IMG/VR virus record: IMGVR_UViG_3300031600_000349
Location: 1-24,694 of that record
Length of the DNA: 24,694 nucleotides
Reading direction: 5' to 3' (one strand)
From: a virus
The translations under genes and the position numbers were made by a program. Of the stretch, positions 9,139-23,365 are shown piece by piece; within the stretch, counting starts at the first letter, position 1; every line of letters begins with the position of its first letter. Under the pieces are notes generated by a model that was not told the origin of the DNA, made no database searches, and saw nothing but the letters and a program-made list of their open reading frames with translations.

Positions 9139-10383
9139 ATGGAAAAAACAAATAGCAAAAAGATTAAGGTCCTTGTAGTACCTTCTGACCGAACTGGTGT
9201 AAGTTATTATAGGTCAACTAAACCTCACGTACATCTAGAACAAATGTACCCAGAAGAATTTCACGTAGATATAGATTACGAACCTCAATTAAATAACGAT
9301 GAGTGGTTGAAGCAATACGATATTATTCATTATCATAGAACGTTAGGTGATTATGGACATATGGAAGATTTAGTTAAACATTTAAACTCACTAGGAATAG
9401 TTACTATAATGGATTTAGATGACTATTGGTTACCTGAGATGAGTCATCCAGCTTATCACATAATAAAAAATAATGATTTGGATGTAAAGATACGTAATAA
9501 TATTAAAACAGCAGAAAACGTAACTACAACTACATCCATTTTTGCTGACGAAATTAAAAAGGTTAATAAAAGCGTTAAAGTTTTACCTAACGCTATTGAC
9601 CCTAATGAAAAACAATTCATTCCTAACCCTGAACCTTCTGATAAAATAAGGATAGGATGGTTAGGTGGTAGTAGCCACTTAAATGATTTACAACTATTGA
9701 ACAAATTAGTAACTAAATTGAAGTCTGATGGTTTATTAGATAAAATACAATTTGTTATTTGTGGGTTTGACATTAGAGGTAAAGTTAATATGATTAATAA
9801 AGAAACTGGCGAAACCACACAAAGAGATGTCAAACCAGAGGAAACAGTATGGGTTCAATATGAAAAAATATTCACTGATAACTACAGTACAATAAGTCCT
9901 GGATACAAAGACCATTTAAATAGATTTGTCACACAGGAATTCGAAGGCGTAGAAAATGAACCATACAGAAGAGTATGGACCAAACCAATTAGTAGTTATG
10001 CAACCAACTACAATTTATTTGATATATCTTTAGCACCTTTAGTTGATAATACTTTCAATAAAGTTAAAAGTCAATTAAAGGTCATTGAAAGCGGGTTCCA
10101 TAAAAAAGCATTGATTGCTCAAAACTTTGGACCTTATACTTTAGATGTCGATAACGCATACGTTAGAGGCGGTGAGATTGACACAAGTAAAAATGGTTTT
10201 CTAGTTGATTCACATAAGAATCATAAATCTTGGTATCAGTACCTTAAAAGACTCATTCAAGAGCCAGAAATGATAAAAACTTTCGGTGACAATCTTTATA
10301 ATACGGTAAAGGACAAATATAGTTTAGATGTTGTAACAAAAGAAAGGGCTGATTACTATAAGAAATTATTAAAGGAAAAATAA
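9139..10383 (+). CDS. GT-B glycosyltransferase (GT4-like), 414 aa
   Basis: The N-terminal Rossmann-like half starts KIKVLVVPSDRTGVSYYR (residues 8-25), with YDIIHYHRTLG at 60-70 and TIMDLDDYW at 89-97, a pattern common in phage and bacterial GT4 proteins. The C-terminal nucleotide-sugar half starts around IRIGWLGGSSHLND (170-183) and contains NLFDISLAPLVDNTFNKVKS (292-311) and KVIESGFHKKALIAQ, in the usual place of the GT-B donor-binding E-x7-E region. It would transfer a sugar from a nucleotide donor to an unknown acceptor in the cytoplasm. It is the first gene after the terminator at 9033-9061 and is separated from the main glycan run by the HD-like and MazG-like genes. Family call good; donor and acceptor unknown. 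Confidence 0.85.
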   Translation: MEKTNSKKIKVLVVPSDRTGVSYYRSTKPHVHLEQMYPEEFHVDIDYEPQLNNDEWLKQYDIIHYHRTLGDYGHMEDLVKHLNSLGIVTIMDLDDYWLPEMSHPAYHIIKNNDLDVKIRNNIKTAENVTTTTSIFADEIKKVNKSVKVLPNAIDPNEKQFIPNPEPSDKIRIGWLGGSSHLNDLQLLNKLVTKLKSDGLLDKIQFVICGFDIRGKVNMINKETGETTQRDVKPEETVWVQYEKIFTDNYSTISPGYKDHLNRFVTQEFEGVENEPYRRVWTKPISSYATNYNLFDISLAPLVDNTFNKVKSQLKVIESGFHKKALIAQNFGPYTLDVDNAYVRGGEIDTSKNGFLVDSHKNHKSWYQYLKRLIQEPEMIKTFGDNLYNTVKDKYSLDVVTKERADYYKKLLKEK

Positions 10384-10384
10384 A

Positions 10385-10525
10385 ATGGAAATATTAAAGA
10401 AAATAGGTCGCTATTTTAAAAACTTGTTTTACACCATTATAGGTAAAGAAGTAAAACCTGAAGATAAGGAAGTTGAAGAAGAAAAATACACGGACTTTTT
10501 ACTGAAAATAACGTCAAACGAATAA
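10385..10525 (+). CDS. Small hypothetical protein, 46 aa
   Basis: The ATG follows the glycosyltransferase stop by 1 nt, and the frame is open for 46 codons to TAA. The product begins MEILKKIGRYFKNLFYTIIG, an amphipathic and partly hydrophobic helix, and then becomes acidic (PEDKEVEEEKYTDF). It could be a small membrane-associated peptide. The tight coupling to the gene before it supports it as real, but no family is recognised. Confidence 0.55.
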   Translation: MEILKKIGRYFKNLFYTIIGKEVKPEDKEVEEEKYTDFLLKITSNE

Positions 10526-10531
10526 TTTATC

Positions 10532-10579
10532 ATGGATAGAAAAATGCGTGAATTAAATGATATATCTGAAGAACAATAA
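10532..10579 (+). CDS. Very short possible ORF, 15 codons
   Basis: An ATG 7 nt after the previous stop opens a 15-codon frame (MDRKMRELNDISEEQ). It is too short to judge and may be chance. It is listed because the spacing is operon-like and the promoter for the next genes begins just after its stop. Confidence 0.2.
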   Translation: MDRKMRELNDISEEQ

Positions 10580-10581
10580 CC

Positions 10582-10612
10582 TTGTCTAAAAGTGTTTAAA
10601 ATAGTATATTTG
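10582..10612 (+). promoter_or_regulatory. Bacteroidota primary-sigma promoter TTG-N20-TAnnTTTG
   Basis: TTG at 10582-10584 is followed after 20 bases by TATATTTG at 10605-10612, a full match to the -33/-7 pattern of the Bacteroidota primary sigma factor. Transcription would start near 10618, about 11 bases before the ATG at 10629. It suggests that the host RNA polymerase transcribes the HD/MazG/glycan genes without the phage late sigma. Confidence 0.65.
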
Positions 10613-10628
10613 ATTAAAATAAATTAAT

Positions 10629-11210
10629 ATGAGTTTAAAAAAGAGTAAAATTGTCTCTAATACTAAGAAGTATGTAGAGACAGCAAAGGAATATGGGTTC
10701 TTGACACCTGAGTTAGAAGATTTCTTAGGTAGCGACTTTATTGAAGCACCAGCTTCAACTTTAGTTAAGTTACATAACGCATTTGAAGGAGGTTTAATTG
10801 ACCATACTTTAAGAGTTATGAAGCATGGTTATTTAATTAATAAAAATAACCTTATTGATGAATTGAAAATTGATGAGGTTTCTTTATTTAAGATAATCTT
10901 GCTTCATTCAATAGGTAAAGCTAAATTATACATTCCAGAAACTTCAGATTGGCATAGAGAAAACCAAGGTAAGATGTATAAATTTAACGAAGACCTTATA
11001 TCAATGAGAGTTGGTGAACGTTCAGGTTATTACGCTCTTAGTAATGGTGTCGAATTAACTGAAGAAGAATACGCTTCTATCATTAACTTTGATAAATCAG
11101 GTGATACACAATCTGAATGGTATAACACTACCGCTGGGGATGTTTTAAAAATGGCAGTTAAATTAGCAATCATGGAAGAAAAGAAGATTGCAGAAAGAAA
11201 TCAAGATTAA
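10629..11210 (+). CDS. HD-domain-like protein with degenerate metal site, 193 aa
   Basis: The layout matches the HD phosphohydrolase family: HNAFEGGLIDHTLRVMKHG (residues 49-67) supplies the first His, LFKIILLHSIGKAKLY the helix that normally carries the H-D pair, and MRVGERSGYYALSNGVELTEEEYASI the typical GERS/eE-x-A-I region. However, the H-D doublet is H-S here (LLHSIGK), and the C-terminal helix (LKMAVKLAIMEE) lacks the Asp usual in the A-D motif. Metal-dependent phosphohydrolase activity is therefore doubtful, and it may bind a nucleotide without cleaving it. It follows a clear promoter and is 1 nt from the MazG-like gene, so the pair probably acts in nucleotide metabolism or sensing. 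Confidence 0.75.
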   Translation: MSLKKSKIVSNTKKYVETAKEYGFLTPELEDFLGSDFIEAPASTLVKLHNAFEGGLIDHTLRVMKHGYLINKNNLIDELKIDEVSLFKIILLHSIGKAKLYIPETSDWHRENQGKMYKFNEDLISMRVGERSGYYALSNGVELTEEEYASIINFDKSGDTQSEWYNTTAGDVLKMAVKLAIMEEKKIAERNQD

Positions 11211-11211
11211 T

Positions 11212-11562
11212 ATGGAGTTTAAAGAATTAAATGAAAAGGTAATTGAATGGGCTGATAATAAGGGAATCCTTAACATCGCCACACCTAAAAGTCAACTTGG
11301 TAAAACGAAAGAAGAGGTTGAGGAATTGACTGAAGCTTTGGAAGCGCAAGATGAAGGTTTGTTTGAGTTTGTAAACTCAAAAGGTGAAACTAAGAACACC
11401 GATTTTGAAATAGAAGATAGTATTGGTGATATTCTAGTAACATTGATAATTCAAGCTAAGATGCAAAATATTGATATTGTAAAGGCCTTAGAATTAGCAT
11501 ATGATACAATCTCAAAAAGAACTGGTAAAATGGTTAATGGGGTTTTCGTTAAAAATAAATAA
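11212..11562 (+). CDS. MazG-like nucleotide pyrophosphohydrolase, 116 aa
   Basis: The all-alpha NTP-PPase fold is indicated by KTKEEVEELTEALEAQ (EExxE motif, roughly residues 27-42) and by the second metal-binding helix DSIGDILVTLIIQAKMQNIDI, followed by AYDTISKRTGKMVNGVF, which is typical of phage MazG-like proteins. Such enzymes hydrolyse nucleoside triphosphates to monophosphates, and phage copies have been proposed to alter nucleotide or alarmone pools. I chose ATG at 11212, one base after the previous stop. An upstream TTG at 11188 would overlap the HD gene and add eight unconserved-looking residues. Compact single-domain size agrees with phage homologues. Confidence 0.85.
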   Translation: MEFKELNEKVIEWADNKGILNIATPKSQLGKTKEEVEELTEALEAQDEGLFEFVNSKGETKNTDFEIEDSIGDILVTLIIQAKMQNIDIVKALELAYDTISKRTGKMVNGVFVKNK

Positions 11563-11573
11563 ATAATTAGTAA

Positions 11574-13220
11574 GTGATAAGTATAGTATTCTGTACCAGA
11601 GAACATAACCAAAAGCATATAGACCACTTAAAGAAAATGGCTGGTCACCCTAAAGTTGAAGTAATTGAATATATAAACAATGGAGAATCCTTAACTAAAG
11701 CTTATAATAAGTTGCTAGATAAGGCTAAGTTCGACATTGTTGTTTTTTGCCACGATGATATTGAAGTTAAAACGAAGCAAATGGCTAAAAAGATGAAGAG
11801 ACATTACGATAAGACTGATTATGGTATATTGGGTGTTGCTGGTACAAAATACTTACATTCAAATGGTAAGTGGTGGACGGACCCAAAGTCCATGTACGGG
11901 CGTGTATGGCATTCACACAAAGGTAAGCAATGGGAATCTAAATATAGTGAGGATTTAAATAAAGGGGTTGAAGATGTTGTTACAGTAGACGGTGTTTTCT
12001 TTTCTGTGATGAAATCTAGACTTGAAAAAATATTTAACGAAGACGTAGAAGGGTTCCATTTCTACGACATTGATTTTTGTTTTAGAAACTTTTTAGATGG
12101 TGTTAAAGTAGGAGTGCATACAGACATTTCAATCACTCACATGTCCATAGGTGAAACAAATAATGAATGGGAAGAGAATAGAAAGAATTTTGCTGAGGAA
12201 TATAAAGATAAATTACCTATCAAAATAGACAGAGAATTTAGCGACAATCATAGCTTTAATATAATGATTAGTTGCATTAACTTCAACAGTTACACGGGTT
12301 CCGAATTGTATAATTACGAACTGGCCAAAGCACTAGTTAAAAAAGGACACAACGTTACTATATGTTCTAACATAGGTGGTAAAATAGCACAACAAGCCTT
12401 AACACACGGAATTAAATTAGTTGACATTAGCGAACCCTTAGGTTTCAAAAGAGGTGATGGTAAATGGCAAATACAAGGTAATGACGGTAAATTAACACCT
12501 TCCGAAGCAAACAAGCTATATAGAGTAGGTCAAGTTAATATTGACATAATTCATTCAAGTCACACACCAGTAACAAAATTAATGGCTAAGATATACCCTG
12601 AGATACCAATAGTGTCTTCAATTCATTCTGAAGTTATTAGTTTAGAACACCCAGTTTTATCTGATAACGTTAAGAAATATATAGCTATCAGGCCTGAAAT
12701 AAAGGAGTATATCACTAAAGAGCACGATATACCTGAGGAAAAAATAGAAATCATTTATAACCCTATCGATGAAACACGTTTTAAACCTGTAGAGGTTGAT
12801 TCTAAGACCGACAAGAAGATTACTCTGTTTGTAGGGACGATTGACTATCTTAGAAAAGATATGCTCTTAGACCTCATTAAAAGAACTAAAGAAGAAAACG
12901 GTGAGTTGTGGGTAATAGGTAAAGAAAACGGTATTAATTTTGACGACATAGCTAACGGACAAGACCACGTACTATATCTTGGTATTCAAAGTAATGTAGA
13001 AAAATATATGAATATGGCCGACGAAACCGCTGGAATACTTTTAGGTAGAACCACCATTGAAGGATGGATGTGTGGTAAAGGTGGTTGGATTTACGACGTT
13101 GATAACAAAGGTAAAATAAAAGGTAAAAGCTTTCACGAAGTTCCAGAATATATTGATAAATTTAAAAGTGGTGAAGTGGCTGATAAAATACTAGAAGAAT
13201 ATAAAGAAGTTTTAAAATAA
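11574..13220 (+). CDS. Two-domain glycosyltransferase: GT2-like plus GT-B, 548 aa
   Basis: Residues 1-215 form a GT-A/GT2-like domain: ISIVFCTREHN as strand 1, AYNKLLDKAKFDIVVFCHDDIEV with a DD metal site at about 61-62, and VDGVFFSVMKS and HFYDIDFCFR further on, resembling the StrF-type GT2 branch. Residues 228-548 form a GT-B domain: NIMISCINFNSYTGSELYNYELAKALVKKGH, IDIIHSSHTPV, IYNPIDETRFKP, TLFVGTIDYLRKDM and GRTTIEGWMCGK. Two sugars could thus be added by one polypeptide. The start is GTG at 11574, because a stop precedes it in frame and the strand ISIVF must be included. It overlaps the next gene by 1 nt (TAATG). Confidence 0.85.
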   Translation: MISIVFCTREHNQKHIDHLKKMAGHPKVEVIEYINNGESLTKAYNKLLDKAKFDIVVFCHDDIEVKTKQMAKKMKRHYDKTDYGILGVAGTKYLHSNGKWWTDPKSMYGRVWHSHKGKQWESKYSEDLNKGVEDVVTVDGVFFSVMKSRLEKIFNEDVEGFHFYDIDFCFRNFLDGVKVGVHTDISITHMSIGETNNEWEENRKNFAEEYKDKLPIKIDREFSDNHSFNIMISCINFNSYTGSELYNYELAKALVKKGHNVTICSNIGGKIAQQALTHGIKLVDISEPLGFKRGDGKWQIQGNDGKLTPSEANKLYRVGQVNIDIIHSSHTPVTKLMAKIYPEIPIVSSIHSEVISLEHPVLSDNVKKYIAIRPEIKEYITKEHDIPEEKIEIIYNPIDETRFKPVEVDSKTDKKITLFVGTIDYLRKDMLLDLIKRTKEENGELWVIGKENGINFDDIANGQDHVLYLGIQSNVEKYMNMADETAGILLGRTTIEGWMCGKGGWIYDVDNKGKIKGKSFHEVPEYIDKFKSGEVADKILEEYKEVLK

Positions 13221-13933
13221 TGACAATAAGAGTTTTAATATTAAACTTAAATAACTTAAATTTTATAAGGGACTGTGTTTCAGATTTGAGAGCGCAGGCC
13301 CATTTTAATTTTAAAGTAACCATAATCGACCAAGATTCAACTGAAGAAGGTAATAGAGAATTTTTAGAGTCTATAAATGATAGTAGGTTTGAAATTATTT
13401 TTAACGAAAACAATGAACCAGTTAATAAAATGTGGAACTGGTTTGCCAACACCTACGATGAAGATTTGTTATGTTTTTTAAACAACGATGTAAGAATACC
13501 AAAAAACTTTATTTTAGATACTATTGAGACCTTCCACAAAGAGGAAGAAGTTGGTATTGCTGTTCACGCAACAAATCACCCTCATTACAGCCATGTTAAA
13601 TCTAAACTAATGTATGCTATTGTTCCCAAATTTAAATACATGCAAGGTTGGGATTACACAATAAGAAAAGAATGTTTCACGCAAATACCAGAAGAATTAA
13701 AAATATATTGCGGTGACGACTTTTTATTTCACCAAACATATTTAAAAGGCTTTGATTTAGCATACATAGTCAGCTCTCCGATAATACACTATGAGGGTCA
13801 ATCTAAAAAGTTCATGAGAACTACTGGTGTGGAGGATATAAAAACCTATAAAGATTTAGGTTTTAAACATTATTTAAAAATAAATTATGAATTTAGTAAC
13901 ATAAAACCAACTTACAAAGAATTTAAAAATTAA
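13220..13933 (+). CDS. GT2-family (GT-A) glycosyltransferase, 237 aa
   Basis: It has the GT-A pattern: TIRVLILNLNNLNFIRDCVSDL (residues 2-23), FKVTIIDQDSTEEGN with a D-x-D-S nucleotide-binding stretch (31-45), the acidic metal site LCFLNNDVRIP (84-94) and an acceptor-side acidic region (YCGDDFLFHQ). The size is normal for a soluble single-domain GT2 without a membrane anchor. The ATG overlaps the preceding stop by one base and the next ATG is 1 nt after its stop, so it belongs to the coupled glycan operon. Sugar specificity cannot be read from sequence. Confidence 0.85.
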   Translation: MTIRVLILNLNNLNFIRDCVSDLRAQAHFNFKVTIIDQDSTEEGNREFLESINDSRFEIIFNENNEPVNKMWNWFANTYDEDLLCFLNNDVRIPKNFILDTIETFHKEEEVGIAVHATNHPHYSHVKSKLMYAIVPKFKYMQGWDYTIRKECFTQIPEELKIYCGDDFLFHQTYLKGFDLAYIVSSPIIHYEGQSKKFMRTTGVEDIKTYKDLGFKHYLKINYEFSNIKPTYKEFKN

Positions 13934-13934
13934 A

Positions 13935-14525
13935 ATGGAAAAAATTGAAGAATTATATAAAGGTTATAAATCAAAACCAATAGTCTATAAATCAAAAGAC
14001 ATTTATGAACACTTACCTGTTATACGCAAGTACGCTAGTGAAGTTGACCATGTAACGGAAATGGGTGTTAGATGGGGTGCTTCTACTATTGCAATAGGAG
14101 TCGCTAACCCAAAGAAAATGATATCATATGACATTACTAAAACATATGACATGTTGAAAGCTGTAAACTTATTAGAAGCATCTGAGATAGATTTCAGTTT
14201 TATTCTAGGTGATACACTTAACATTGAGATTGAAGAAACTCAAATGTTATTTATTGACACGCTACACACCTACAATCAATTAAGTAAAGAATTGGAGTTG
14301 CACGAGGGTAAGGTAACCAACTACATCATCCTACATGACACCGAAAGCTTTGGTAGGAAAGATGAAAGTATATACTCACATGCCTCACAAACATTGAAAG
14401 AAATGAAAAAGGGTAAAGTTGGTCTAATGACAGCGGTCGAAGATTTTTTAGAAGTAAATAAAAGTTGGGTTATTGAAAAACATTATAAAAATAATAACGG
14501 TTTAACCGTATTAGCCAGAATTTAA
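13935..14525 (+). CDS. Class I SAM methyltransferase (Methyltransf_24 / CmcI-like), 196 aa
   Basis: Motif I is degenerate but recognisable as TEMGVRWGASTIAI (residues 41-54). It is followed by MISYDI with Asp66, a FILGDTL strand (89-95) and LFIDTLHTYNQLSKEL (105-120), whose D-x-x-H is typical of the cephalosporin hydroxylase/rhamnosyl O-methyltransferase-like group, then NYIILHDTESFG with His134-Asp135. These residues usually bind a metal used in O-methylation of sugars. It lies between glycosyltransferase genes, so it probably methylates a hydroxyl on the glycan being made. Methyl acceptor unknown. Confidence 0.8.
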   Translation: MEKIEELYKGYKSKPIVYKSKDIYEHLPVIRKYASEVDHVTEMGVRWGASTIAIGVANPKKMISYDITKTYDMLKAVNLLEASEIDFSFILGDTLNIEIEETQMLFIDTLHTYNQLSKELELHEGKVTNYIILHDTESFGRKDESIYSHASQTLKEMKKGKVGLMTAVEDFLEVNKSWVIEKHYKNNNGLTVLARI

Positions 14526-14536
14526 TAAAAATTGAT

Positions 14537-15154
14537 ATGAAAACTAGGGTCAATTTTTTTGATTTAGGCATGTTTGATGGAGCTGAATCCTTAATGTTTT
14601 TAGAAGATATTAAAGGTTTAAACGTTGACCCATACATTTATGGGTTTGAGGCGTATCAACCGTTTTACGAAAATATATGTGAGTTGTTTAGTGATAACAA
14701 TAACGTTAACATAAATAATTTAGCAATTTCTAATAGTGATTCTTACGTTAAACTTTTTCTAGAAAAAAGCGGTCAGGGAAATTCAATATACGAAAGTAAA
14801 AATAATGTTGACGCTAAAAATTTTATTGAAGTTAAAAGTGTTTCATTCGCTGACTGGATGATTAAAAATGTAACAAATTATAAGAACAATTTCAATATAC
14901 TAAGGTTTAATATAGAAGGTGCCGAATTACCACTTATGGAAGACATTATCAATAAAAAGATTCATAAAGATTTTAAGATTTTTTTAGGGTCACACGTTGG
15001 TGTGGATATAAAAAAAGTGGGTGAAATAAAGGATAAATTTAATTATTATGTCAACCTATTAAAAAGTAATAACATAAATGTAGAGTTATATTGTAAAGAC
15101 TTAACAACTAGTAACGTCAACTTACATAATTTAATCAAAGAAAAACTAAAATGA
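14537..15154 (+). CDS. FkbM-family SAM methyltransferase, 205 aa
   Basis: Motif I reads VNFFDLGMFDGAESLMF (residues 5-21), the acidic residue after strand 2 is in YGFEAYQPFYENI, and the family-defining late motif ILRFNIEGAELPLMEDII (121-138) is present. FkbM-type enzymes methylate sugar or polyketide oxygens. The start ATG is 11 nt after the previous gene, and its stop overlaps the next start by 4 nt (ATGA). With the neighbouring Methyltransf_24-like gene, it gives the glycan locus two distinct O-methyltransferases. Confidence 0.85.
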   Translation: MKTRVNFFDLGMFDGAESLMFLEDIKGLNVDPYIYGFEAYQPFYENICELFSDNNNVNINNLAISNSDSYVKLFLEKSGQGNSIYESKNNVDAKNFIEVKSVSFADWMIKNVTNYKNNFNILRFNIEGAELPLMEDIINKKIHKDFKIFLGSHVGVDIKKVGEIKDKFNYYVNLLKSNNINVELYCKDLTTSNVNLHNLIKEKLK

Positions 15155-15801
15155 TTGTAATATATAGCGCTATTTACGGAAATAAAAATAAAATACTTGA
15201 GGTACCTGAAATTGATGGTGTTAGTAACATAATGTACACAGATTATGACATTACCCCTAAGTATTATAAAGGTTGGGAAATAAGAAAATCTAAAGGTGAA
15301 GAATTCAATAGTAGTGTATTGAATGCCAAACAATTTAAACTTTTACCACATAAATTCTTACCTGAGTATGATACAACAATTTGGGTTGATGGTAGTATTA
15401 AAACTAAAAATATAGTCGAATTCATTGAATTGTATAATAAAAATGAAATGGTTGTTTTTGACCATAATCACACTACATTTGATAAAAGAGATTGCATATA
15501 TGACGAAGCTAAAGTGGTCATGTCTCAAGGTTTAGATAAGAAATCAACAATCAATAAACAAATAGGTGAGTATAAATCAGAAGGATTTCCGAAAAATAAT
15601 GGTTTAATATGTGGCGGGGTTTTATTAAGAAAGAATACAGACTTAATTAATAAAATTATGGATGAATGGTGGAGTGAAATTATAAAAGGAAGTTTTAGAG
15701 ACCAATTATCATTTAATTATGTTGCTTGGAAAAATGATTTTAAACCACACTATATAAAAGATGACATTAGGTCAAACAAATATTTTAAAATTAATGAGTA
15801 A
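15151..15801 (+). CDS. DUF616 (TOD1/MUCI70-like) glycosyltransferase, 216 aa
   Basis: The protein follows the DUF616 pattern closely: MIVIYSAIYGNKNK at the start, YTDYDI (residues 29-34), a NAKQFKLLPHKFLPEYDTTIWVDGSI block (58-83), HTTFDKRDCIYDEAK (107-121), the GFPKNNGLICGGVLLRKN region (145-162) and WWSEIIKGSFRDQLSFNYV (173-191). The WVDGS and RDQLSF motifs are thought to form the GT-A donor and active-site region in this family. It is translationally coupled to the FkbM gene (ATGA) and overlaps the start of the pyruvyl transferase gene by 8 nt. Family call strong; linkage made is unknown. Confidence 0.85.
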   Translation: MIVIYSAIYGNKNKILEVPEIDGVSNIMYTDYDITPKYYKGWEIRKSKGEEFNSSVLNAKQFKLLPHKFLPEYDTTIWVDGSIKTKNIVEFIELYNKNEMVVFDHNHTTFDKRDCIYDEAKVVMSQGLDKKSTINKQIGEYKSEGFPKNNGLICGGVLLRKNTDLINKIMDEWWSEIIKGSFRDQLSFNYVAWKNDFKPHYIKDDIRSNKYFKINE

Positions 15802-16843
15802 AAGAACTGCAATTTTTAGTCTAGCACCCCATGATAGACATAACTATGGTGATATATTATATGGTAATTTATTAAACAAACTTTATGCTGATAAAGACGT
15901 TGACTTTTACTATGTTGGGTTGGTGGACATTGATATGACAGAGTTAGGAGGTGGGGTTGTTATACCAGTCAGTAAGATGATTGAAATAAGTAAAATTTAC
16001 ACTGATGTTACAATATACGTTGGAGGTGGTGAGTTTTTAAACTCTGCTTATGGTGGCTTAAAGTCTTTTATAGATAACAACCTTAAAAAATCAATAGACA
16101 GAACTTTAAGGTATCCTTTTATGGTGGATAAATCACTGTTTGATTCGGATATAAATCTTAGTGTTAAGTTTATATCATTTGGTGGTGTAATGCCAAATGC
16201 ACCACAAGTAGCTAAATTATTTAATGAAGGTGATATTGTATACGCTAGAGATTCACTGACATCTTTCTTAGTTAAAGAAAAAGGTGTTAAGAATGTAAAA
16301 ACATTTCCAGACTTAGGTCAATTCACTAGAGAAATACTAAATTTAGAAAGCTTAACAAATGATTTGTTTGATGACTACGTTGTTATTCAAGTGGGTAAAG
16401 CTAAATTCGAATCTAAGGAGGTGTTGAAGAATGAAATAATAAAGTTAAGTGAAGTAGAAAACGTAATACTATTACCAGTGGCTTATTGTAACGAACATGA
16501 CGACGACAAAATATTGGCTGAGTTGGAAAAAGAAATCAATCTACCCAACGTCAAATTATTTAAGGATAAAAACATAATCAATATAACTAAGGTAATTGCT
16601 AATAGTAATATGTGCATTGGTACTAGCCTACACTTAATGATGGTAGCTAACAGTTACGGGGTTAAATATTTACCACTTAACAGTGTCAAGAAAATTGATA
16701 GGTATCAAAACACTTGGCATGAAACTAAGGTTAAATGTAATGAGAACAACCTTTTCGAGAAGTATAAAAAATCAATTAATAAAGAGTACAAGTTTTTCGA
16801 AAAATATAATGTTTCAGATTTAAAAAAAATAATAGGTATATGA
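15794..16843 (+). CDS. Polysaccharide pyruvyl transferase family protein, 349 aa
   Basis: Recognisable blocks are FSLAPHDRHNYGDILYGNLL (residues 8-27, the N-x-GD motif), VTIYVGGGEFLN (72-83), GDIVYARDSLTSFLVKEKG (146-164), FPDLGQF, and MCIGTSLHLMMVANSYGVKYLPL near 270-292. Together these mark the family that adds ketal-linked pyruvate from phosphoenolpyruvate to sugars, or structurally related GT-B-like enzymes. I chose ATG at 15794. A GTG at 15761 in the same frame would overlap the previous gene by 41 nt and add 11 residues of another frame's coding DNA. The stop overlaps the next ATG by 4 nt. It would add a negative charge to the phage-made glycan. Confidence 0.85.
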   Translation: MSKRTAIFSLAPHDRHNYGDILYGNLLNKLYADKDVDFYYVGLVDIDMTELGGGVVIPVSKMIEISKIYTDVTIYVGGGEFLNSAYGGLKSFIDNNLKKSIDRTLRYPFMVDKSLFDSDINLSVKFISFGGVMPNAPQVAKLFNEGDIVYARDSLTSFLVKEKGVKNVKTFPDLGQFTREILNLESLTNDLFDDYVVIQVGKAKFESKEVLKNEIIKLSEVENVILLPVAYCNEHDDDKILAELEKEINLPNVKLFKDKNIINITKVIANSNMCIGTSLHLMMVANSYGVKYLPLNSVKKIDRYQNTWHETKVKCNENNLFEKYKKSINKEYKFFEKYNVSDLKKIIGI

Positions 16844-17817
16844 TAGATAAATTTAAAAGAAAAATGGCTATGCTTTCATTAGCATTGTCTAAAGTAGAAA
16901 AATCTTCACTCAATAAAGAGTCGGGTGGGTTTGATAGCGAAAGCTTATTATCTCAAACTATGAACCAAGGTACCATGGCCGACGCCTTATTAAAGGGTGA
17001 AATAACGACTGAAGTAAAAGATTTAAGGTGGAGAACTTATAAAGTATTAAATGAGAGTGAAAATTTTAAAACTAAGATAAGTGGTTATGACGAAGACGGT
17101 ATACCAATAACTGAAACTACTACTTCCGAAAAAAGAAACCTTAAAAAGGTTAATGTTGATTCGTATGACGATTATGAAGTTGAGTTAGTTATTAATAACG
17201 AGGAAACAACAAAATCTACATATGATGAAATATCTAATGAAAGTCTAAAAATTTTAAAGGAAAAAGAAATTGAAGAATATGAAAAAAACAACGATAAATT
17301 TGACCTTATTGGAATGGAAGGTGACGGGTCAACGGTAGGTGAGATATCATTTCACGATATGGTGTCTGATATGAAAACTGGTAGGTCAATAAACATTACC
17401 AGAGAATTAAAACCTAAATTTGAAATTGAAGAGTACGCTAAAAAATTAGTGATTAGGAATATAAATGATGAAAGTAAGTTATTAGAGTTTTATATTTCTA
17501 AATATCCTGACGAATACAACAGAAAAAGTAGATTGATGTTGAGTGAGGTTAAAAAGATAAGTAAAAACCCTAGAGCTGTGAATATGTTAGATATAAACGG
17601 CGTTGATTTTATAACTGATAGAGCAATAGGCGCCGATAATGGCATGGAATATTCTTATGTTATAAATAAATTTGACAAAATAATTGAACACAATGGTCAC
17701 TATGTGTTAAAGTTTTTAGCCACACCAGAAGTCAATGGTAGATTCATTTTTGATAAATACAGGCAAGAAGCTTTAGAAGAGCGTTATAGGAATAAAGAGA
17801 GTAAAAAATCTAGTTAA
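16840..17817 (+). CDS. Hypothetical phage protein, 325 aa, end of glycan operon
   Basis: No family is recognised with confidence. Notable parts are SLLSQTMNQGTMADALLKGEITTEVKDLRWRTYKV in the first 70 residues, an acidic middle, and a more ordered C-terminal half (ITRELKPKFEIEEYAKKLVIR, LLEFYISKYPDEYN, then a beta-rich stretch NGMEYSYVINKFDKIIEHNGHYVLKFLA). It is soluble, highly charged and has no signal peptide. Although ATGA-coupled to the pyruvyl transferase, it does not look like an enzyme of sugar metabolism. It may be a conserved phage structural or DNA-metabolism protein into whose vicinity the glycan genes were inserted. The terminator at 17849 closes this transcript. Confidence 0.75.
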   Translation: MIDKFKRKMAMLSLALSKVEKSSLNKESGGFDSESLLSQTMNQGTMADALLKGEITTEVKDLRWRTYKVLNESENFKTKISGYDEDGIPITETTTSEKRNLKKVNVDSYDDYEVELVINNEETTKSTYDEISNESLKILKEKEIEEYEKNNDKFDLIGMEGDGSTVGEISFHDMVSDMKTGRSINITRELKPKFEIEEYAKKLVIRNINDESKLLEFYISKYPDEYNRKSRLMLSEVKKISKNPRAVNMLDINGVDFITDRAIGADNGMEYSYVINKFDKIIEHNGHYVLKFLATPEVNGRFIFDKYRQEALEERYRNKESKKSS

Positions 17818-17848
17818 TGGTTTAGTTTTTATTTTTTATACATATATT

Positions 17849-17882
17849 AAATGCGAGGTTAAAAAAAGCCTCGCATTTTTTT
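17849..17882 (+). terminator. Strong intrinsic terminator abutting the phoH start codon
   Basis: A perfect 10-bp stem pairs 17849-17858 with 17869-17878 around a 10-base loop, followed by a T run to 17882. The next base begins the ATG of phoH. It ends the glycan-operon transcript and leaves no room for a promoter or leader between it and phoH. Confidence 0.9.
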
Positions 17883-18629
17883 ATGGCAAAGAGACAACCA
17901 AAAAAGACAGAAAAAACAGAAAGAGACCAAAAGGCTACTAGAAGTAAGCCGACAAGTAAGATACTAACTAAAAGAGTTACCTTAAAGTGTAAGAATGTTA
18001 AACAAAAAGAATATGCTAATTTAATTAAAGAAAAAGAAATCATATTCTGCTCAGGTCCATCTGGTGTAGGTAAAAGTTATGTGGCAATGGCCGTAGCTTT
18101 GAAACTACTTCAAGATGGAGATAATTCATTCAATAAGATATTAATTGTTAAACCAGCTGTAGAAGCTGAAGAAAACCTAGGTTTCTTACCAGGTGATTTA
18201 AAAGAAAAGATGGCACCTCATATGGCATCATCAATTGATATCGTAGACAAAATAATAGGTAAACCAAATAGACTAAAATTAGAAGAGTCTGAAGAGATTA
18301 TGATTGAACCGCTGGGCTTCCTTAGGGGTAAATCAATTGATAATTCCATATTGGTTATGGAAGAAGCTCAAAATATGTCACCTTCTCAAATGAAAACTCT
18401 ATTGACAAGGATAGGGTATGGGTCTAAATACATCATCTCAGGTGATATGGACCAATCAGATAGATACAAAGACAGTAAACAAAGTGGATTATATGACGCT
18501 ATCAATAGACATAAGTTTATTGAAGAGTTAGGGTTTTTTGAATTTAATGAAAACGACATTGTAAGAAATCCATTGATAACCAAAATGCTTATCAACTATA
18601 AAGTAGAAAATAAAGTAATGGATAAATAA
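17883..18629 (+). CDS. phoH: PhoH-like ATPase, 248 aa
   Basis: A basic, Lys/Thr-rich tail (residues 1-35) precedes a PhoH core. Walker A is FCSGPSGVGKSYVAMAVALKLL (about 55-76), then ILIVKPAVEAEENLGFLPGDLKEKM, MIEPLGFLRGKSIDNSILVMEEAQNMSPSQMKTLLTRIG with the Walker B acidic pair, and KYIISGDMDQSDR (sensor-like SGD-x-Q). PhoH proteins are RNA-helicase-like P-loop ATPases very common in large phages; their role is uncertain and may concern RNA metabolism or phosphate stress. The next Met lies after Walker A, so ATG 17883 must be the start even though a terminator ends right before it. Confidence 0.93.
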   Translation: MAKRQPKKTEKTERDQKATRSKPTSKILTKRVTLKCKNVKQKEYANLIKEKEIIFCSGPSGVGKSYVAMAVALKLLQDGDNSFNKILIVKPAVEAEENLGFLPGDLKEKMAPHMASSIDIVDKIIGKPNRLKLEESEEIMIEPLGFLRGKSIDNSILVMEEAQNMSPSQMKTLLTRIGYGSKYIISGDMDQSDRYKDSKQSGLYDAINRHKFIEELGFFEFNENDIVRNPLITKMLINYKVENKVMDK

Positions 18630-18676
18630 TAAAGACATTCTGTTCACTTTAGACAAAAAATACGTACAATAATAAT

Positions 18677-18715
18677 ATGAAAATAGGAATAACATTATTC
18701 ACGTTTAAGATGTGA
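18677..18715 (+). pseudogene. Stub of a gene start (12 codons), left behind at endonuclease insertion
   Basis: The frame MKIGITLFTFKM-stop begins with five codons (IGITL) identical in DNA to codons 4-8 of the HAD-like gene at 19803. The identity stops exactly at the last base of the endonuclease stop codon. It looks like the original start of the HAD-like gene, cut off when the minus-strand endonuclease cassette entered. Confidence 0.6.
18683..18697 (+). repeat. 15-bp direct repeat, left copy
   Basis: ATAGGAATAACATTA here is repeated exactly at 19812-19826. The two copies flank the endonuclease gene. The left copy overlaps its stop codon (18695-18697) by three bases. Confidence 0.9.
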
Positions 18716-19693
18716 TATGAGATAATCTTTATTAGTCCTTTTTAAATGTTTGTAAATCCTCAATTCATTTTTTCTAAAATCCGTTAAATTATTATATTTA
18801 TTTATAATTTTTTTTAATTCATTTATTGTTAATTTAATATTAGACTTTTTATCAGGCATATGTTTAGCGGCTTCATCAACAATTTTAAGTTTCAACAACA
18901 TTCTATATTCTTTCTCATGTTTATTTTTAAATTCATTAAACGAATTATATTTTTTACATAATTTAAATAATTTTTGTTTATTATATATTTTATTATATAC
19001 ATTATTTATTTTTATTTTGTTAACATCATCTTCTCTTAAAGTTAAGTCAGTGGTTTTATTTATTAGTTTAAGATTATCATTAATTTGTTTCTTAATATCT
19101 TTAATATAATTTCTACTTTTTTCGTAAATATGAATCAATGTGATATTTTTATTCTTGGTTAAAGATATTTTTAATTCATCATTATTTTCTAAAGTATGCC
19201 AATATTTACCCTGATACTCAAAAGCCAATTTATATTCTTTGTAATATAAATCTAGTTCATATGGTTTAATTATTTTTCGATTGTTATATGATGCTTTTAA
19301 ATTTAAAAGTTGATTCATTAAGTCTTCTAAAATCATCTGTGGGATACTATATTTAAATGGGGTCATATGAGACGTTAATTCATCTAAATAACCTTTTAAA
19401 CGAGCAGATTGATAAGCTGGCTCATCAAACTCTTTTAATTCTCTTATTGAAGTATATTTATTAAAAATTTTTTTTAATTCATTATAATTTAAATCTCTAT
19501 AACCTAGATTTATTTTAGTTTTGTGACCTTTTTTATTTCTCCATAATAAAAATTTTTCACTTTTTTTTAAACCCAATCTATACCCTTTATTGTCAATTGA
19601 AGATTTAGACTTATTCAAAATTGTTGCTATTTCTAAATTAGTTTTATTTGAATAAATTTCTTTTAATTTCTTTTCTTGCATTGTAGTCCACAT
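18695..19693 (-). CDS. VSR-like (EDxHD type) homing-type endonuclease, 332 aa
   Basis: The N-terminus is a SANT/GcrA-like helix-turn-helix (WTTMQEKKLKEIYSNKTNLEIA..., residues 2-42). Residues about 117-200 form a nuclease core like that of the VSR/EDxHD group: ILEDLMN (121-127), YELDLYYKEYKLAFEYQGKYWH (145-166) and ITLIHIYE (184-191). About three copies of a module with a KY..., F/L... and HM pattern surround it (around 66-110, 240-279 and 290-330; for example KKYNSFNEFKNKHEKEY). Such modules accompany phage homing endonucleases and probably contact DNA. The gene is on the opposite strand to its neighbours, more AT-rich, and lies between phoH and the HAD-like gene, all signs of a free-standing mobile gene. 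It would cut a cognate site in phages lacking the insertion. Confidence 0.8.
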   Translation of the reverse strand: MWTTMQEKKLKEIYSNKTNLEIATILNKSKSSIDNKGYRLGLKKSEKFLLWRNKKGHKTKINLGYRDLNYNELKKIFNKYTSIRELKEFDEPAYQSARLKGYLDELTSHMTPFKYSIPQMILEDLMNQLLNLKASYNNRKIIKPYELDLYYKEYKLAFEYQGKYWHTLENNDELKISLTKNKNITLIHIYEKSRNYIKDIKKQINDNLKLINKTTDLTLREDDVNKIKINNVYNKIYNKQKLFKLCKKYNSFNEFKNKHEKEYRMLLKLKIVDEAAKHMPDKKSNIKLTINELKKIINKYNNLTDFRKNELRIYKHLKRTNKDYLISHLKRE

Positions 19694-19811
19694 AATAATC
19701 TCTCATTTATAATAATAAATTATAACCAATTTTCACTAAAAGTGAATAATAAATAAAAAGATATACCTTTTTTATTTTTAGGTGGTATATTAAAAATAAA
19801 AAATGGCTCAG
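18698..19811. mobile_element. Endonuclease cassette inserted between phoH and the HAD-like gene
   Basis: The segment between the 15-bp direct repeats holds essentially the minus-strand endonuclease gene and its AT-rich 5' flank. The limits are set by where the duplicated start of the HAD-like gene (IGITL codons) ends and resumes. No terminal inverted repeats or transposase are present, so homing by the encoded nuclease is the likely means of spread rather than transposition. Confidence 0.6.
19694..19802. other. Intergenic region between divergent endonuclease and HAD-like genes
   Basis: This is 109 very AT-rich bases. It holds a 6-bp hairpin with a 3-base loop (19732-19737 with 19741-19746) and a second inverted repeat (19761-19767 with 19784-19790) that could fold just before the ATG at 19803. 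Near the endonuclease start, the minus strand has TATAAATG (19704-19711), one base from the late box but too close to the ATG to be convincing. I see no clear -33/-7 pair. Confidence 0.5.
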
Positions 19812-20384
19812 ATAGGAATAACATTAAACGAAGTAATTAGAGACTATGTAGGTCAACTAAAGTACGTTTATAAGAAATATTACGGTGAAGATTTAGAAGA
19901 TGTTAAAGTAGAAGACTTTGACTTAGCCAGTTTTTTCAAGTTTGACTCACAGGAAGCTTTTCATAAGTTTCTATACAGCGAGAGTCCAATGGAAATATTC
20001 GCACACGCTGACCAATCATATAAAAATGTCGGTCCAATTCTAAACAGTTTTATTAACGACATAAACGACTACGAAGAACACGAGGTTATATTATTAAGTA
20101 GAGACGTACATAAAAGTAGACCCGCAACACTATTCTTTTTATCAAAACTAGGGTTTACTGGTAATAGCATTAAATTCGCACTTGATACTAAGAAATTATG
20201 GGATGATGTAGATGTTTTAGTTACAGCAAACCCAGTAGCTTTAGATAGTAAACCTGAAGGTAAAATTTCAGTTAAAATCGAAGCAACTTACAATGAAAAT
20301 ACTGAGTCTGATTATACATTAGAATCAATATTAGATTTTATAAATAATGAAGAGCAATTTAAAAAAATAATGAATAATGATTAA
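19803..20384 (+). CDS. HAD-like (deoxyribonucleotidase-type) protein lacking the nucleophile, 193 aa
   Basis: The C-terminal half resembles phage HAD-superfamily 5'-nucleotidases: HEVILLSRDVHKSRPATLFFLSKLGF (motif II-like, residues 93-118), then KKLWDDVDVLVTANPVALDSKPEGK (130-154), matching the usual 'DvlvTdNP..l..KP.GK' region. The N-terminus reads IGITLNEVIRDYV where active members have D-x-D (iDlDdvL); both Asp residues are absent, so phosphatase chemistry is unlikely. It may have a structural or binding role. Its start was disturbed by the endonuclease insertion (see stub at 18677). It overlaps the next gene by 8 nt. Confidence 0.6.
   Translation: MAQIGITLNEVIRDYVGQLKYVYKKYYGEDLEDVKVEDFDLASFFKFDSQEAFHKFLYSESPMEIFAHADQSYKNVGPILNSFINDINDYEEHEVILLSRDVHKSRPATLFFLSKLGFTGNSIKFALDTKKLWDDVDVLVTANPVALDSKPEGKISVKIEATYNENTESDYTLESILDFINNEEQFKKIMNND
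19812..19826 (+). repeat. 15-bp direct repeat, right copy
   Basis: This is identical to 18683-18697 and encodes codons 4-8 (IGITL) of the HAD-like gene. Confidence 0.9.
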
Positions 20385-20727
20385 AATATTTGGAGATTTA
20401 TATTACATCGACTTTGAAAAGTTAGATGCCTTTGTGGCTGATGGTCAAAAAGATAATGTATTTAAAACAGTGGATAAAGAATATAACTATGATAATGAAT
20501 TGGTAAAGACGAAAATAATTGAAGCTGCTGAACCTACCACTAAAGAAGTTAACGTCGTGAGATATGAAATAATTAGAAATTTCATTGACGATATCTCAAT
20601 GGCTGGTGGTACAAGTGACGAACATGATGAAATGTTGGGGTCTAATAATCTAATTAAAACCGATGTAAAATTTAAATTAGCGTATAATACTCTAATTTTT
20701 TATAAGATATTAAAAAAAATTGATTAA
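20377..20727 (+). CDS. Small hypothetical phage protein, 116 aa
   Basis: No family is recognised. It begins MIKIFGDLYYIDFEKLDAFV, continues with an acidic linker, then VNVVRYEIIRNFIDDISM and a C-terminal helix (FKLAYNTLIFYKILKKID). It is soluble and close in length to small accessory proteins of T4-like phages. The start overlaps the HAD-like gene by 8 nt and the next ATG follows 4 nt after its stop, so it is part of the same transcript as the glycosyltransferases and the late sigma factor. A TATAAATA at 20339-20346 lies inside the previous gene upstream, but may be chance. Confidence 0.75.
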   Translation: MIKIFGDLYYIDFEKLDAFVADGQKDNVFKTVDKEYNYDNELVKTKIIEAAEPTTKEVNVVRYEIIRNFIDDISMAGGTSDEHDEMLGSNNLIKTDVKFKLAYNTLIFYKILKKID

Positions 20728-20731
20728 AAAA

Positions 20732-21847
20732 ATGGAAAACGAAAAAAAACAAGTACAAGTAAAAGAATTTATAAGTAAAATTGATAATAAAGATTTTGGT
20801 TTATATTTCTTTACTTTGGATACAAAAGGTAACCCAACTGCTGGTATTGCTAATATATACGAGCACGTTAAAGTCTTAAATGATTTAGGGTATAAAGCTC
20901 ATATATTACACGAAAAAGATGACTATCATGGCGTTGAAGAATGGTTAGGTGAAGAGTACGCTAAACTACCACACGTTTCAATTGAACAACAAAATTTAAA
21001 ACTAGTTGCAATAGATTACATTATTGTACCTGAGATTTTTGCTAACGTAATGGAGCAAGTAAAAGACTTCCCATGTAAGAAAATAGTATTTTCACAGTCC
21101 TATTCTTACATCTTAGAATTTTTACCAATTGGTAATAGGTGGGATTTAAACTTTGGCTTTACTGATGTAATCACAACATCTGAAAGACAGTCAGAGTACA
21201 TCAAAGACCTATTTCCAAGTATCGACACTCATATCATACCGCCGTCAATACCTGAGTACTTTAAAACGACTGATAAGATTAAAAAACCGATTGTCTCTAT
21301 TGTAACTAGAGACCAGAAAGCTGCACTAAGATTGGTTAAGTCGTTCTACTTACAACATCCAATGTATAAATGGATTACGTTTAGAGAACTTAGAGGTTTA
21401 CCTAGAAAAACGTTTGCTGAGCAACTAGGTGAGTCTTGTCTAGCTATATGGGTTGATGATGAATCCAGTTTTGGAACATTCCCTATTGAAGCTATGGAGT
21501 GTGACACACCTGTTATAGGTAAGATACCTGCTATGATTCCTGAATGGATGGAAGACGATAGTTCGGATGAACAACAAATTAGTTTGAAAGATAATGGTGT
21601 TTGGACTAATAACGAATTATCTATACCTAATTTAGTGTCAGAGTTCATGAGAGTATGGTTAGAAGATAATGTACCTAGTACCTTAATGGAAGGTGTTAAA
21701 AAATCTAAAGGTCAATACACTGAAGATAAGCAAGTTGAAAATATCAAACGTGTATATGGTAATCTAATTGCTAATAGAAGAAGTGAGTTTGAAGCACTTA
21801 TTGATATAACTAAAGAAAAAGAAAAAGAAAACAAAGATGAAAAATAA
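20732..21847 (+). CDS. GT-B glycosyltransferase (GT4-like), 371 aa
   Basis: The N-terminal half carries LYFFTLDTKGNPTAGIANIYEHVKVLNDLGYKAHIL, the glycine-rich acceptor-side loop of GT4 proteins, and YIIVPEIFANVM and KKIVFSQSYSYI. The C-terminal half has ITTSERQSEYIKDLFP, HIIPPSI, and the donor-site signature SSFGTFPIEAMECDTPVIG with the E-x-x-x-C/P spacing typical of GT4. A Lys/Glu-rich tail (TKEKEKENKDEK) ends the protein. ATG 20732 is preferred over a TTG at 20720, which lies inside the previous gene. It overlaps the next gene (GT2) by 11 nt. The acceptor is unknown; pairing with a GT2 repeats the theme of the upstream glycan cluster. Confidence 0.85.
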   Translation: MENEKKQVQVKEFISKIDNKDFGLYFFTLDTKGNPTAGIANIYEHVKVLNDLGYKAHILHEKDDYHGVEEWLGEEYAKLPHVSIEQQNLKLVAIDYIIVPEIFANVMEQVKDFPCKKIVFSQSYSYILEFLPIGNRWDLNFGFTDVITTSERQSEYIKDLFPSIDTHIIPPSIPEYFKTTDKIKKPIVSIVTRDQKAALRLVKSFYLQHPMYKWITFRELRGLPRKTFAEQLGESCLAIWVDDESSFGTFPIEAMECDTPVIGKIPAMIPEWMEDDSSDEQQISLKDNGVWTNNELSIPNLVSEFMRVWLEDNVPSTLMEGVKKSKGQYTEDKQVENIKRVYGNLIANRRSEFEALIDITKEKEKENKDEK

Positions 21848-22625
21848 AAATGATATCACAGTAATCACGCCTCTTTATAATGTGGACGAGACTTTACTTA
21901 ATAATGCTATCAAGTCGATAGCAATGCAAGAAACAAAACCAGATACGGTAATGTTTGTTGTTGGTACCGATAAAGACCATGGTGTTTTATCTGATTTAAT
22001 GAAAAATTACGATTTGAATTTTGATGTTATTAAACATGACAAATCAACTGATTTTCAAGCTCAAATGAATCTAGGTGTTGAAAATTGCAAAAGTAAATGG
22101 TTTATCTTTTTAGAGCAAGACGATGAGTTAAGTGGAAAATGGGTAAGTAACGTTGTGAAGTATAGAGAAGTTTATACTGACACTCAAATATTTCTACCAA
22201 TAATATTAGACGTGGACCCTCAAAGCAATTTTATTGGGTTCACTAACGAAGCTGTATGGGCATCTCAATTCTCAGATGAAATGGGTGTGTTGGATAATGC
22301 TGCACTATTGAGGTATCAAAATTTTAATATGGATGGAATGGCCATGTTAAAAGAAGCATATCAAGAATTCGGTGGACTTAAAGAAAGCATGAAATTGAGT
22401 TTTATAAGTGAATTCCTATTAAGGTTTACATTCAATTCATGTAAAGTGATGATTATCCCTAAATTAGGGTATAAACATCTAAATGACAGAGAAGGTAGCT
22501 TATTTAACTCTTATAAAAAAGAGTTAACGCCAGATGAATCAAGATGGTGGTTATCTTTGGCTAAGAAAGAATATTTCCACGTCAATGACAGAAATATCCT
22601 TTATGAAAAAACAGAAAAATCTTAA
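21837..22625 (+). CDS. GT2-family glycosyltransferase, 262 aa
   Basis: The N-terminal GT-A domain is clear: DITVITPLYNVDETLLNNAIKSIAMQETKP (residues 5-34), VMFVVGTDKDHGV, DFQAQMNLGVENCKSKWFIFLEQDDELS with the metal-binding D-D at about 95-96. The C-terminal part (NMDGMAMLKEAYQEFGGL, LSFISEFLLRF) fits the acceptor side of GT2 proteins. There are no membrane segments. The ATG lies 11 nt inside the preceding GT-B gene, and its stop overlaps the sigma factor ATG by one base, so late sigma synthesis is coupled to translation of glycan genes. Confidence 0.87.
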   Translation: MKNKNDITVITPLYNVDETLLNNAIKSIAMQETKPDTVMFVVGTDKDHGVLSDLMKNYDLNFDVIKHDKSTDFQAQMNLGVENCKSKWFIFLEQDDELSGKWVSNVVKYREVYTDTQIFLPIILDVDPQSNFIGFTNEAVWASQFSDEMGVLDNAALLRYQNFNMDGMAMLKEAYQEFGGLKESMKLSFISEFLLRFTFNSCKVMIIPKLGYKHLNDREGSLFNSYKKELTPDESRWWLSLAKKEYFHVNDRNILYEKTEKS

Positions 22626-23365
22626 TGGCAAAAAAAAGAGGACGTAAAAGAATCAAAGGTTTATATTTTGGCCCTGAAGAAGAGGAAGCCGTTGTTAGGT
22701 TTTTGAATGAAGAAGACCCTATTAAAAGAGATAAAATTTATAATAAGCACTTAAGAGCTGCTTTTAATACAATGATTGAGTCTATTATTAGACGTTATAA
22801 ATTATATAGGAAAACTTATACTTTTGAAAACCTACATGGTGACACACTCTCTTACCTTATGTTAAAAGCTGATAAATTTAAACCAGAAAAAGGTAAAAGA
22901 GCTTACTCGTATTACGGAACTATATGTAAAAACTATATATTAGGATTATTGATTAAAGATGAGAAGAATATGAGGCAGACGCTGGAGTTCACGTCATCAA
23001 TTAATAAGGTGCATGAAAAGGACGAGTTTATTTACCATTTATCGGATACCGATTATATGCTAAGCGACTTAATAGATACCATGTGCGATGAGATTAAAAG
23101 TGAGTTAAACGGCGAAGATGAGGGTAAAAAGAAATTAACAGAGAATGAACGTAAAGTAGGCGAAGCTCTAATTTCTATTTTAGGAAACTGGGAAACTTTA
23201 TTTGAGTCACTAAGTGGCGGTTCCAAATTCAATAAGAATAGCATACTTAGTACAATTAGAGAATACACAGGGTTAGTAACTAAAGACATTAGGATTGCTA
23301 TGCGGAGATATAAGACAATATATGAGCTAACTAAAGCTGATAAAATAGATAAGGGTTTTTTATAA
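22625..23365 (+). CDS. T4 gp55-like late-transcription sigma factor, 246 aa
   Basis: A basic N-terminus (MAKKRGRKRIKG) precedes a sigma region-2-like domain: IKRDKIYNKHLRAAFNTMIESIIRRYKLY (33-61), ENLHGDTLSYLMLKADKFKPEKGKRAYSYYGTICKNYIL (68-106). The 'KF-P-GKRAYSYYGTI-KNYI' block is where region 2 melts and contacts -10 DNA. An acidic linker and a helical C-terminal part (residues 160-246) follow, with no clear region 4, as expected for gp55. It ends in a short hydrophobic tip (DKGFL) that might contact the sliding clamp, as the T4 gp55 tail does; that is speculative. It is longer than T4 gp55 (185 aa). It would direct host RNA polymerase to TATAAATA late promoters. Confidence 0.8.
   Translation: MAKKRGRKRIKGLYFGPEEEEAVVRFLNEEDPIKRDKIYNKHLRAAFNTMIESIIRRYKLYRKTYTFENLHGDTLSYLMLKADKFKPEKGKRAYSYYGTICKNYILGLLIKDEKNMRQTLEFTSSINKVHEKDEFIYHLSDTDYMLSDLIDTMCDEIKSELNGEDEGKKKLTENERKVGEALISILGNWETLFESLSGGSKFNKNSILSTIREYTGLVTKDIRIAMRRYKTIYELTKADKIDKGFL

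Follow-up and report, generated by a model that had tools for sequence, protein, structure and literature searches.

A fixed frame of four glycosyltransferase genes flanks an exchangeable glycan cassette in a lineage of T4-like aquatic phages

Bacterial O-antigen and capsule loci have fixed flanks around an exchanged interior. We describe a comparable architecture, with a traded interior rich in glycosyltransferase (GT) and sugar-nucleotide genes, at the glycan locus of IMG/VR record IMGVR_UViG_3300031600_000349, a 24.7-kb viral contig fragment whose positions 1 to 24,694 form the window analyzed here. Unlike the bacterial loci, this one belongs to a group of phages in whose 30 records we found no flippase, polymerase, or initiating phosphoglycosyltransferase. 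Among described phages, the Moraphages, large aquatic Bacteroidota phages, carry four near-universal GT orthogroups of unassigned purpose and variable islands that are left unstudied in the accessible part of their description (PMC12619734). Like the phages examined here, they have four widespread GTs, T4-type structural genes, PhoH, a sigma factor (sigma-like in our records), and aquatic hosts in the Bacteroidota (likely hosts in our case), and the moraphage GTs may be the same as the core GTs of this locus, the two sets being compared by description only. A glycan slot, however, is not described in that part of the report, and lysine-tRNA ligase, listed there for 24 of 28 Moraphages (PMC12619734), exceeded the cut-off (PF00152) in 0 of our 30 records, which are often fragments; we therefore do not claim moraphage membership.

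Other known systems share single features with the locus. The host recognition cluster of pelagimyophages and cyanomyophages is likewise a hypervariable island of GT and sugar-nucleotide genes in a T4-like structural region, but in pelagimyophages it occupies the interval from VrlC to gp14 and contains tail fibres as well, whereas the borders here are a core GT (GT11574) and PhoH, the contents are mostly glycan genes, and four GTs form a frame (PMC7029224). In phi92-like phages (Justusliebigvirus), gp163-166 place a homologue of the core GT GT9139 (26% identity) beside three other GTs, although that block is near DNA polymerase and endolysin genes, has another gene order, and contains no such cassette in the stretch compared. 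A third core GT, GT20732, resembles AmGGT, a homologue of the Agt enzyme that extends protein-linked glucose chains in the NGT/Agt cytosolic protein glucosylation system of Actinobacillus (PMC12159676); a protein-initiating NGT did not turn up here, where none was sought. For the gene combination as a whole the nearest precedent, judged by analogy, is the fibril-glycan cluster of mimiviruses (Megavirinae), whose clade-specific GTs and putative pyruvyl transferase are credited, in the available portion of the source, with pyruvylated and partly methylated fibril polysaccharides, so that the virion polysaccharide bears a pyruvic acid ketal and O-methyl groups (PMC9614988). This likeness is one of description: mimiviruses are giant viruses of eukaryotes with other donor pathways, and a fixed core with a traded slot does not appear in that portion (PMC9614988). 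Related phages have thus already been reported to carry core GTs and variable GT islands; what this locus adds is a traded glycan slot held in a fixed four-GT frame, together with its promoters and the methyl/pyruvyl version. Our literature search, in which subscription journals were thinly covered, found no earlier report of such a frame.

We compared the window with about 30 related giant phages from lake and sea, represented by 30 dereplicated regions or records (4.77 Mb in total, contigs of up to 362 kb) assembled by joining loci with further stretches of the same contigs. Gene families were assigned by Pfam and PHROG profile searches and folds by AlphaFold2 (AF2) models followed by Foldseek. 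All nine glycan open reading frames (ORFs), encoding six GTs, two methyltransferases, and one pyruvyl transferase, were confirmed in coordinates and strand, and ORFs, families, and folds agree with what a first-pass annotation had assigned at these places. That annotation had regarded them as one nine-gene set, a view that the comparison revises: the nine genes are four fixed core GTs (GT9139, GT11574, GT20732, and GT21837) plus an exchangeable five-gene cassette (13220-16843). The search for the same set in related phages that the annotation had suggested recovered it from eight other contigs, with pyruvyl transferase identities of 99-100% in seven and 96% in one, and the nine-gene region is therefore not an assembly artefact; among relatives, by contrast, 26 of 29 lack every gene of the window's cassette, and the core GTs are present in all regions that reach them. 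A near-identity search of sequenced phages with the 13.5-kb region gave no match.

The gene order GT9139 – GT11574 – slot – PhoH – g19803 – GT20732 – GT21837 – sigma is invariant across the 30 regions as far as the contigs reach, with a slot between GT11574 and PhoH that holds 1-20 genes and spans 1.9-18.1 kb. Median pairwise gene sharing is 0% in the slot, compared with 80% for the ten downstream genes and 33% for the six upstream genes (means of 0.09, 0.79, and 0.41, respectively), and 51% of phage pairs have no slot gene in common. Clustering of the 342 slot ORFs gave 162 clusters, of which 97 are singletons; the cluster representatives include GT families 2, 4, 7, 11, 15, 17, 25, and 61, FkbM and many other methyltransferases, a sulfotransferase, and acetyltransferases, together with NeuB, cytidylyltransferases, UDP-GlcNAc 2-epimerase, UDP-sugar dehydrogenase, epimerases, DegT aminotransferases, and FdtA. 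The first-pass annotation had seen no nucleotide-sugar synthesis, which is accurate for the short cassette of this species, and had concluded that donors come from the host; because relatives carry NeuB, cytidylyltransferase, UDP-GlcNAc 2-epimerase, UDP-sugar dehydrogenase, and DegT genes in the same slot, exclusive reliance on host donors is not supported as a property of the system.

Two pairs of phages separate the history of the slot from that of its frame. The cores of L040 and L048 are 92.9% identical on average, yet only 21% of their slot genes are common, whereas L039 and L048 have cores that are 73.0% identical and share 92% of their slot genes, most at 73-94% identity. Cassettes therefore move as blocks, and gene content across the group indicates that phages trade slot contents much as bacteria swap surface-antigen genes.

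The core GTs that frame this traffic, all on the plus strand, are conserved across phages at 37-69% identity. GT9139 (9139..10383), found in 30 of 30 relatives at 51-69% identity, matches the PHROG 7162 glycosyltransferase family (4e-42); its AF2 model, built on a 30-sequence alignment, has a predicted local distance difference test score (pLDDT) of 89.7 and a Foldseek match to GT4 enzymes (E 7e-14). GT20732 (20732..21847) gave a model of pLDDT 89.2 from a 27-sequence alignment and matches the structure 8xsg both by profile (1e-14) and by Foldseek (E 2.9e-15); its nearest solved structure is AmGGT of Actinobacillus, at an identity of only about 19%. No GT model in Pfam matched either protein, and the confident models predict that both are GT-B enzymes resembling solved GT4 enzymes. 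GT11574 (11574..13220), the left edge of the slot, combines a GT2-like and a GT4 domain (Pfam Glyco_tranf_2_5, 2.6e-29; GT4 N-domain, 3.3e-16) and occurs in 30 of 30 relatives, its C-terminal half being shortened in some. GT21837 (21837..22625) is a GT2 enzyme (Pfam 3.8e-13) with an invariant E..DDE in the alignment, present with GT20732 in all 27 regions that reach that far. A tblastn search of sequenced phages with GT20732 returned none. LR756501.1, a 735-kb uncultured phage, carries a 36% identical GT9139 homologue (540613-541806) and a 50% identical PhoH (691034-691690) far apart from one another. In the 298-kb relative L066 (record G013), which differs here from the other members examined, a Gp23 gene stands directly upstream of the GT9139 homologue, at about 8.3-11.2 kb.

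The cassette of this species, also on the plus strand, begins with a GT2 glycosyltransferase (GT13220, 13220..13933; Pfam GT2 3.5e-12) and a methyltransferase like CmcI and rhamnosyl O-methyltransferases (MT13935, 13935..14525; Pfam RMNT_CmcI 4.7e-7) with relatives in L041 and L095 at 52-54% identity. There follow an FkbM-like methyltransferase (MT14537, 14537..15154; PHROG 8156 methyltransferase 2.5e-7; Pfam FkbM at 21.8 bits, with a cut-off of 22.7), a TOD1/MUCI70-type glycosyltransferase (GT15151, 15151..15801; Pfam TOD1_MUCI70 3.3e-13; PHROG 26101 1.7e-17), and a polysaccharide pyruvyl transferase (PYR15794, 15794..16843, alternative start 15761) that matches nearly the full PF04230 PS_pyruv_trans profile (3.6e-12). 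The five genes and the following g16840 adjoin or overlap by a few bases in operon-like fashion, and in L041 the homologues of GT13220 and MT13935 form a single fused frame of 440 amino acids (15692-17011). Among the 30 records the pyruvyl transferase is confined to this species (0 of 28 records of related phages); tblastn found none in sequenced phages, and no close relatives appeared in bacterial genome contigs. The combination that the annotation did not recognise is thus unusual in phages, although the mimivirus cluster supplies a precedent outside them (PMC9614988). Neither the pyruvyl transferase nor MT13935 matched a solved structure by sequence. Strain L006/L019 differs from the window most in MT14537 (92.8% identity) and the pyruvyl transferase (94.8%), all other compared genes being at least 98.5% identical.

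The phage itself is T4-like, as previously noted from the window, because genes for Gp23, portal, head protease, and large terminase all lie on a same-species contig (G001) and because 23 of 30 records, the two same-species contigs G001 and G002 among them, have a Gp23-type major capsid protein (PF07068) above the cut-off. On the same-species contig L128, PHROG profiles identify portal (1.6e-63), protease (3.9e-29), and terminase (1.4e-43). In lake phages predicted to infect Bacteroidetes, the gene for ribosomal protein bS21 neighbours those for Gp23 and terminase and is encoded on the reverse strand (PMC9723584). Of our 30 records, 6 carry bS21; G016, G020, and G021 have it on the minus strand at a distance of about 3-4 kb from Gp23, and the same-species contigs lack it. 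Because of bS21 in these relatives and the Bacteroidota-type promoters described below, the host is likely a member of the Bacteroidota.

Two promoter types coexist in this one T4-like lineage: Bacteroidota housekeeping promoters before glycan and nucleotide genes, and TATAAATA before the fibre. A strict match to the former, TTG-N20-TATATTTG, heads the glycan operon (10582..10612, plus strand), and the pattern TTG-N18-21-TAnnTTTG precedes g10629 in 10 of 18 regions, where 0.1 would be expected. The T4-type late promoter TATAAATA stands at the fibre start; 21 of the 24 divergent gaps examined carry it on their fibre side. Among the patterns scanned, only these two were enriched in gaps; a sigma-70 consensus scan gave 110 matches compared with 101 in shuffles and showed no enrichment. 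Since host-type promoters precede the glycan operons and TATAAATA precedes the fibre, the most economical reading is that the phage probably synthesizes its glycan enzymes early and its fibre late. Terminator-like hairpins on the plus strand lie before GT9139 (9033..9056; 10-pair stem and T tract, with similar ones in many relatives) and at the operon end before PhoH (17849..17878; 12-pair stem and T tract).

The absence of export and polymerization enzymes bears directly on what the locus may do. The Wzx flippase (PF01943), the Wzy polymerase or WaaL ligase (Wzy_C, PF04932), and the initiating phosphoglycosyltransferases WbaP and WecA (PF02397 and PF00953) were each found in 0 of 30 records (4.77 Mb), with most cellular control genomes positive. 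The same lack had been noted from the window, and it extends to the relatives, although a 24.7-kb fragment alone could not have been a basis for that judgment. Because enzymes for export, polymerization, ligation, and initiation on a lipid carrier were not found in these records, cytosolic action on a pre-existing acceptor is most likely. We tentatively propose, with a confidence just short of even, that the locus would build a conserved core and an exchangeable, methyl- and pyruvyl-capped tip, with a virion protein as the likeliest acceptor. Working in the cytosol, the four core GTs would assemble an unvarying core sugar chain on an acceptor common to all these phages, and the slot genes would extend it with a tip specific to each phage. 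In this species the tip would comprise about two more residues, O-methylated and pyruvylated into a small cap, partly hydrophobic, anionic, and hard to digest. The acceptor would most likely be a phage-encoded surface protein of the virion, whether capsid, tail, or long repeat fibre; enzymes made early from host-type promoters would wait for the late virion proteins, and variation of the tip might let the particle escape whatever binds or attacks it. A constant acceptor is implied by a four-GT core unchanged at 37-69% identity, and since the core is constant while hosts differ, which is harder to reconcile with host polysaccharides, a phage-encoded acceptor is most likely. The grouping of GT20732 with Agt and AmGGT, which both lengthen glucose chains, Agt doing so on cytosolic glycoproteins (PMC12159676), points in the same direction, as does the major capsid protein gene directly upstream of GT9139 in L066. 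The broader view, that each phage of the lineage is covered by an exchangeable glycan coat of its own, with a fixed core on a virion protein and a horizontally traded tip that defines particle 'serotypes' (methylated and pyruvylated in this species), is possible, and we hold it with clearly less than even confidence.

Several observations weigh against a virion acceptor. The glycan operons are probably not co-expressed with virion genes, to judge from their promoters, and early expression would suit a change of the host surface as well or better. The substrates reported for AmGGT are oligosaccharides, not glycopeptides (PMC12159676), and N-x-S/T sequons in the fibre number 61, compared with 59.4 +/- 6.3 in shuffles, so that enrichment of N-glycosylation sequons in the fibre is rejected. 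Related genomes are mostly fragments in which absences are not proofs, and the predicted acceptor remains a candidate, virion and host surface not being separable by sequence.

A close competing account, which we consider only somewhat less likely than the virion reading, is that the GTs act early in the cytosol on lipid-linked O-antigen, capsule, or protein-glycan intermediates of the host, whose own flippase exports the products, so that the serotype of the infected cell changes and competing phages or released progeny no longer adsorb. Host-type (early) promoters before the operons would fit this account, as would a lipopolysaccharide-like repertoire with NeuB, CMP-sugar, and UDP-sugar genes and the hypervariability expected of serotype genes, and it is the reading given for GT islands of pelagimyophages (PMC7029224). 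Host surface glycans, however, are not constant, whereas very diverse phages all keep the same four core GTs; the phages were not found to encode a flippase, polymerase, or ligase themselves; and a strictly lytic phage would gain little unless adsorption by others is common. Phage DNA, another target named by the first-pass annotation, would be modified if the GTs glycosylated altered bases, with methyl and pyruvyl groups on the sugars, and thereby blocked restriction. T4 DNA glucosyltransferases have early-type promoters, as the operons here do. HD and MazG nucleotide genes lie within the operon, and GTs for phage DNA glycans exist (Pyle 2024, cited in PMC12619734). Against this, the 52.7-kb same-species contig, an incomplete genome, contains among base-modification candidates only a canonical thymidylate synthase, which keeps the LPFNIASY motif and matches the PHROG profile for thymidylate synthase rather than hydroxymethylase. 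Because that enzyme is canonical, DNA modification is unlikely, and the sulfotransferases, NeuB, FkbM, and large variable gene sets are unlike known DNA-modification clusters; overall we regard this target as highly improbable. We also think it very unlikely that the slot is a loose island of hitch-hiking genes at a permissive site, most not cooperating and some serving host metabolism. A few slot genes of relatives do fall outside glycan synthesis (NAD synthase and peptidyl-tRNA hydrolase), but cassette genes abut or overlap as in an operon, the same functional classes return in unrelated cassettes, the core GTs are never lost, and the GT2 and methyltransferase genes of the cassette are fused in L041.

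The core GTs of huge aquatic phages have so far been listed as conserved without an assigned job, and a frame with a traded cassette makes them a testable system, with the prediction that phages would have the same core and a different tip on the same acceptor. If the acceptor is a virion protein, these phages would control their own surface serotypes; if it belongs to the host, the whole lineage would consist of lytic phages that remodel the surfaces of their hosts. In either case, small GTs, methyltransferases, and pyruvyl transferases with a probable joint function can readily be drawn from the slot.

Several other genes interrupt the nine glycan genes, namely those for an HD-like protein and MazG, g16840, PhoH, a homing-endonuclease-like gene, g19803, and g20377. 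At the operon head, g10629 (10629..11210, plus strand), present in 18 regions, encodes an HD-like phosphohydrolase (PHROG 28876 metal-dependent phosphohydrolase, 4.7e-7). The MazG-like pyrophosphatase gene that follows (11188..11562, plus strand; PHROG 715, 1e-28) stands between g10629 and GT11574 only in this species, relatives having other ORFs there (about 190 and 330 amino acids). The conserved g16840 (16840..17817, plus strand) lies in the slot or at its edge and is found in 18 regions, on either slot side; the right border is a PhoH-like ATPase (17883..18629, plus strand; PHROG 170, 1.4e-68) present in 29 of 30 relatives. After the core GTs comes a sigma-like factor (22625..23365, plus strand), a candidate for a gp55-type late sigma, syntenic in 26 regions and with weak matches to PHROG 234 late sigma (0.013) and Pfam Sigma70_r2 (0.0064). 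Searches of the window for tRNAs and for Rfam RNA elements found none. The fibre that the annotation had placed next door is indeed there, as a long fibre-like repeat protein whose frame is incomplete at the edge of the window (3..6569, minus strand), with 27 FGHIT repeats spaced mostly 58-62 amino acids apart and a weak PHROG virion-protein match (2e-4); on a same-species contig (L135 with L004) it extends to at least 3008 amino acids, is rich in threonine, serine, and asparagine, and has 36 FGHIT repeats. The homing-endonuclease-like gene between PhoH and g19803 (18695-19693, minus strand; PHROG 3339, 2e-12) is missing there in most relatives, and L060 has a homologue of 42% identity at the same place.

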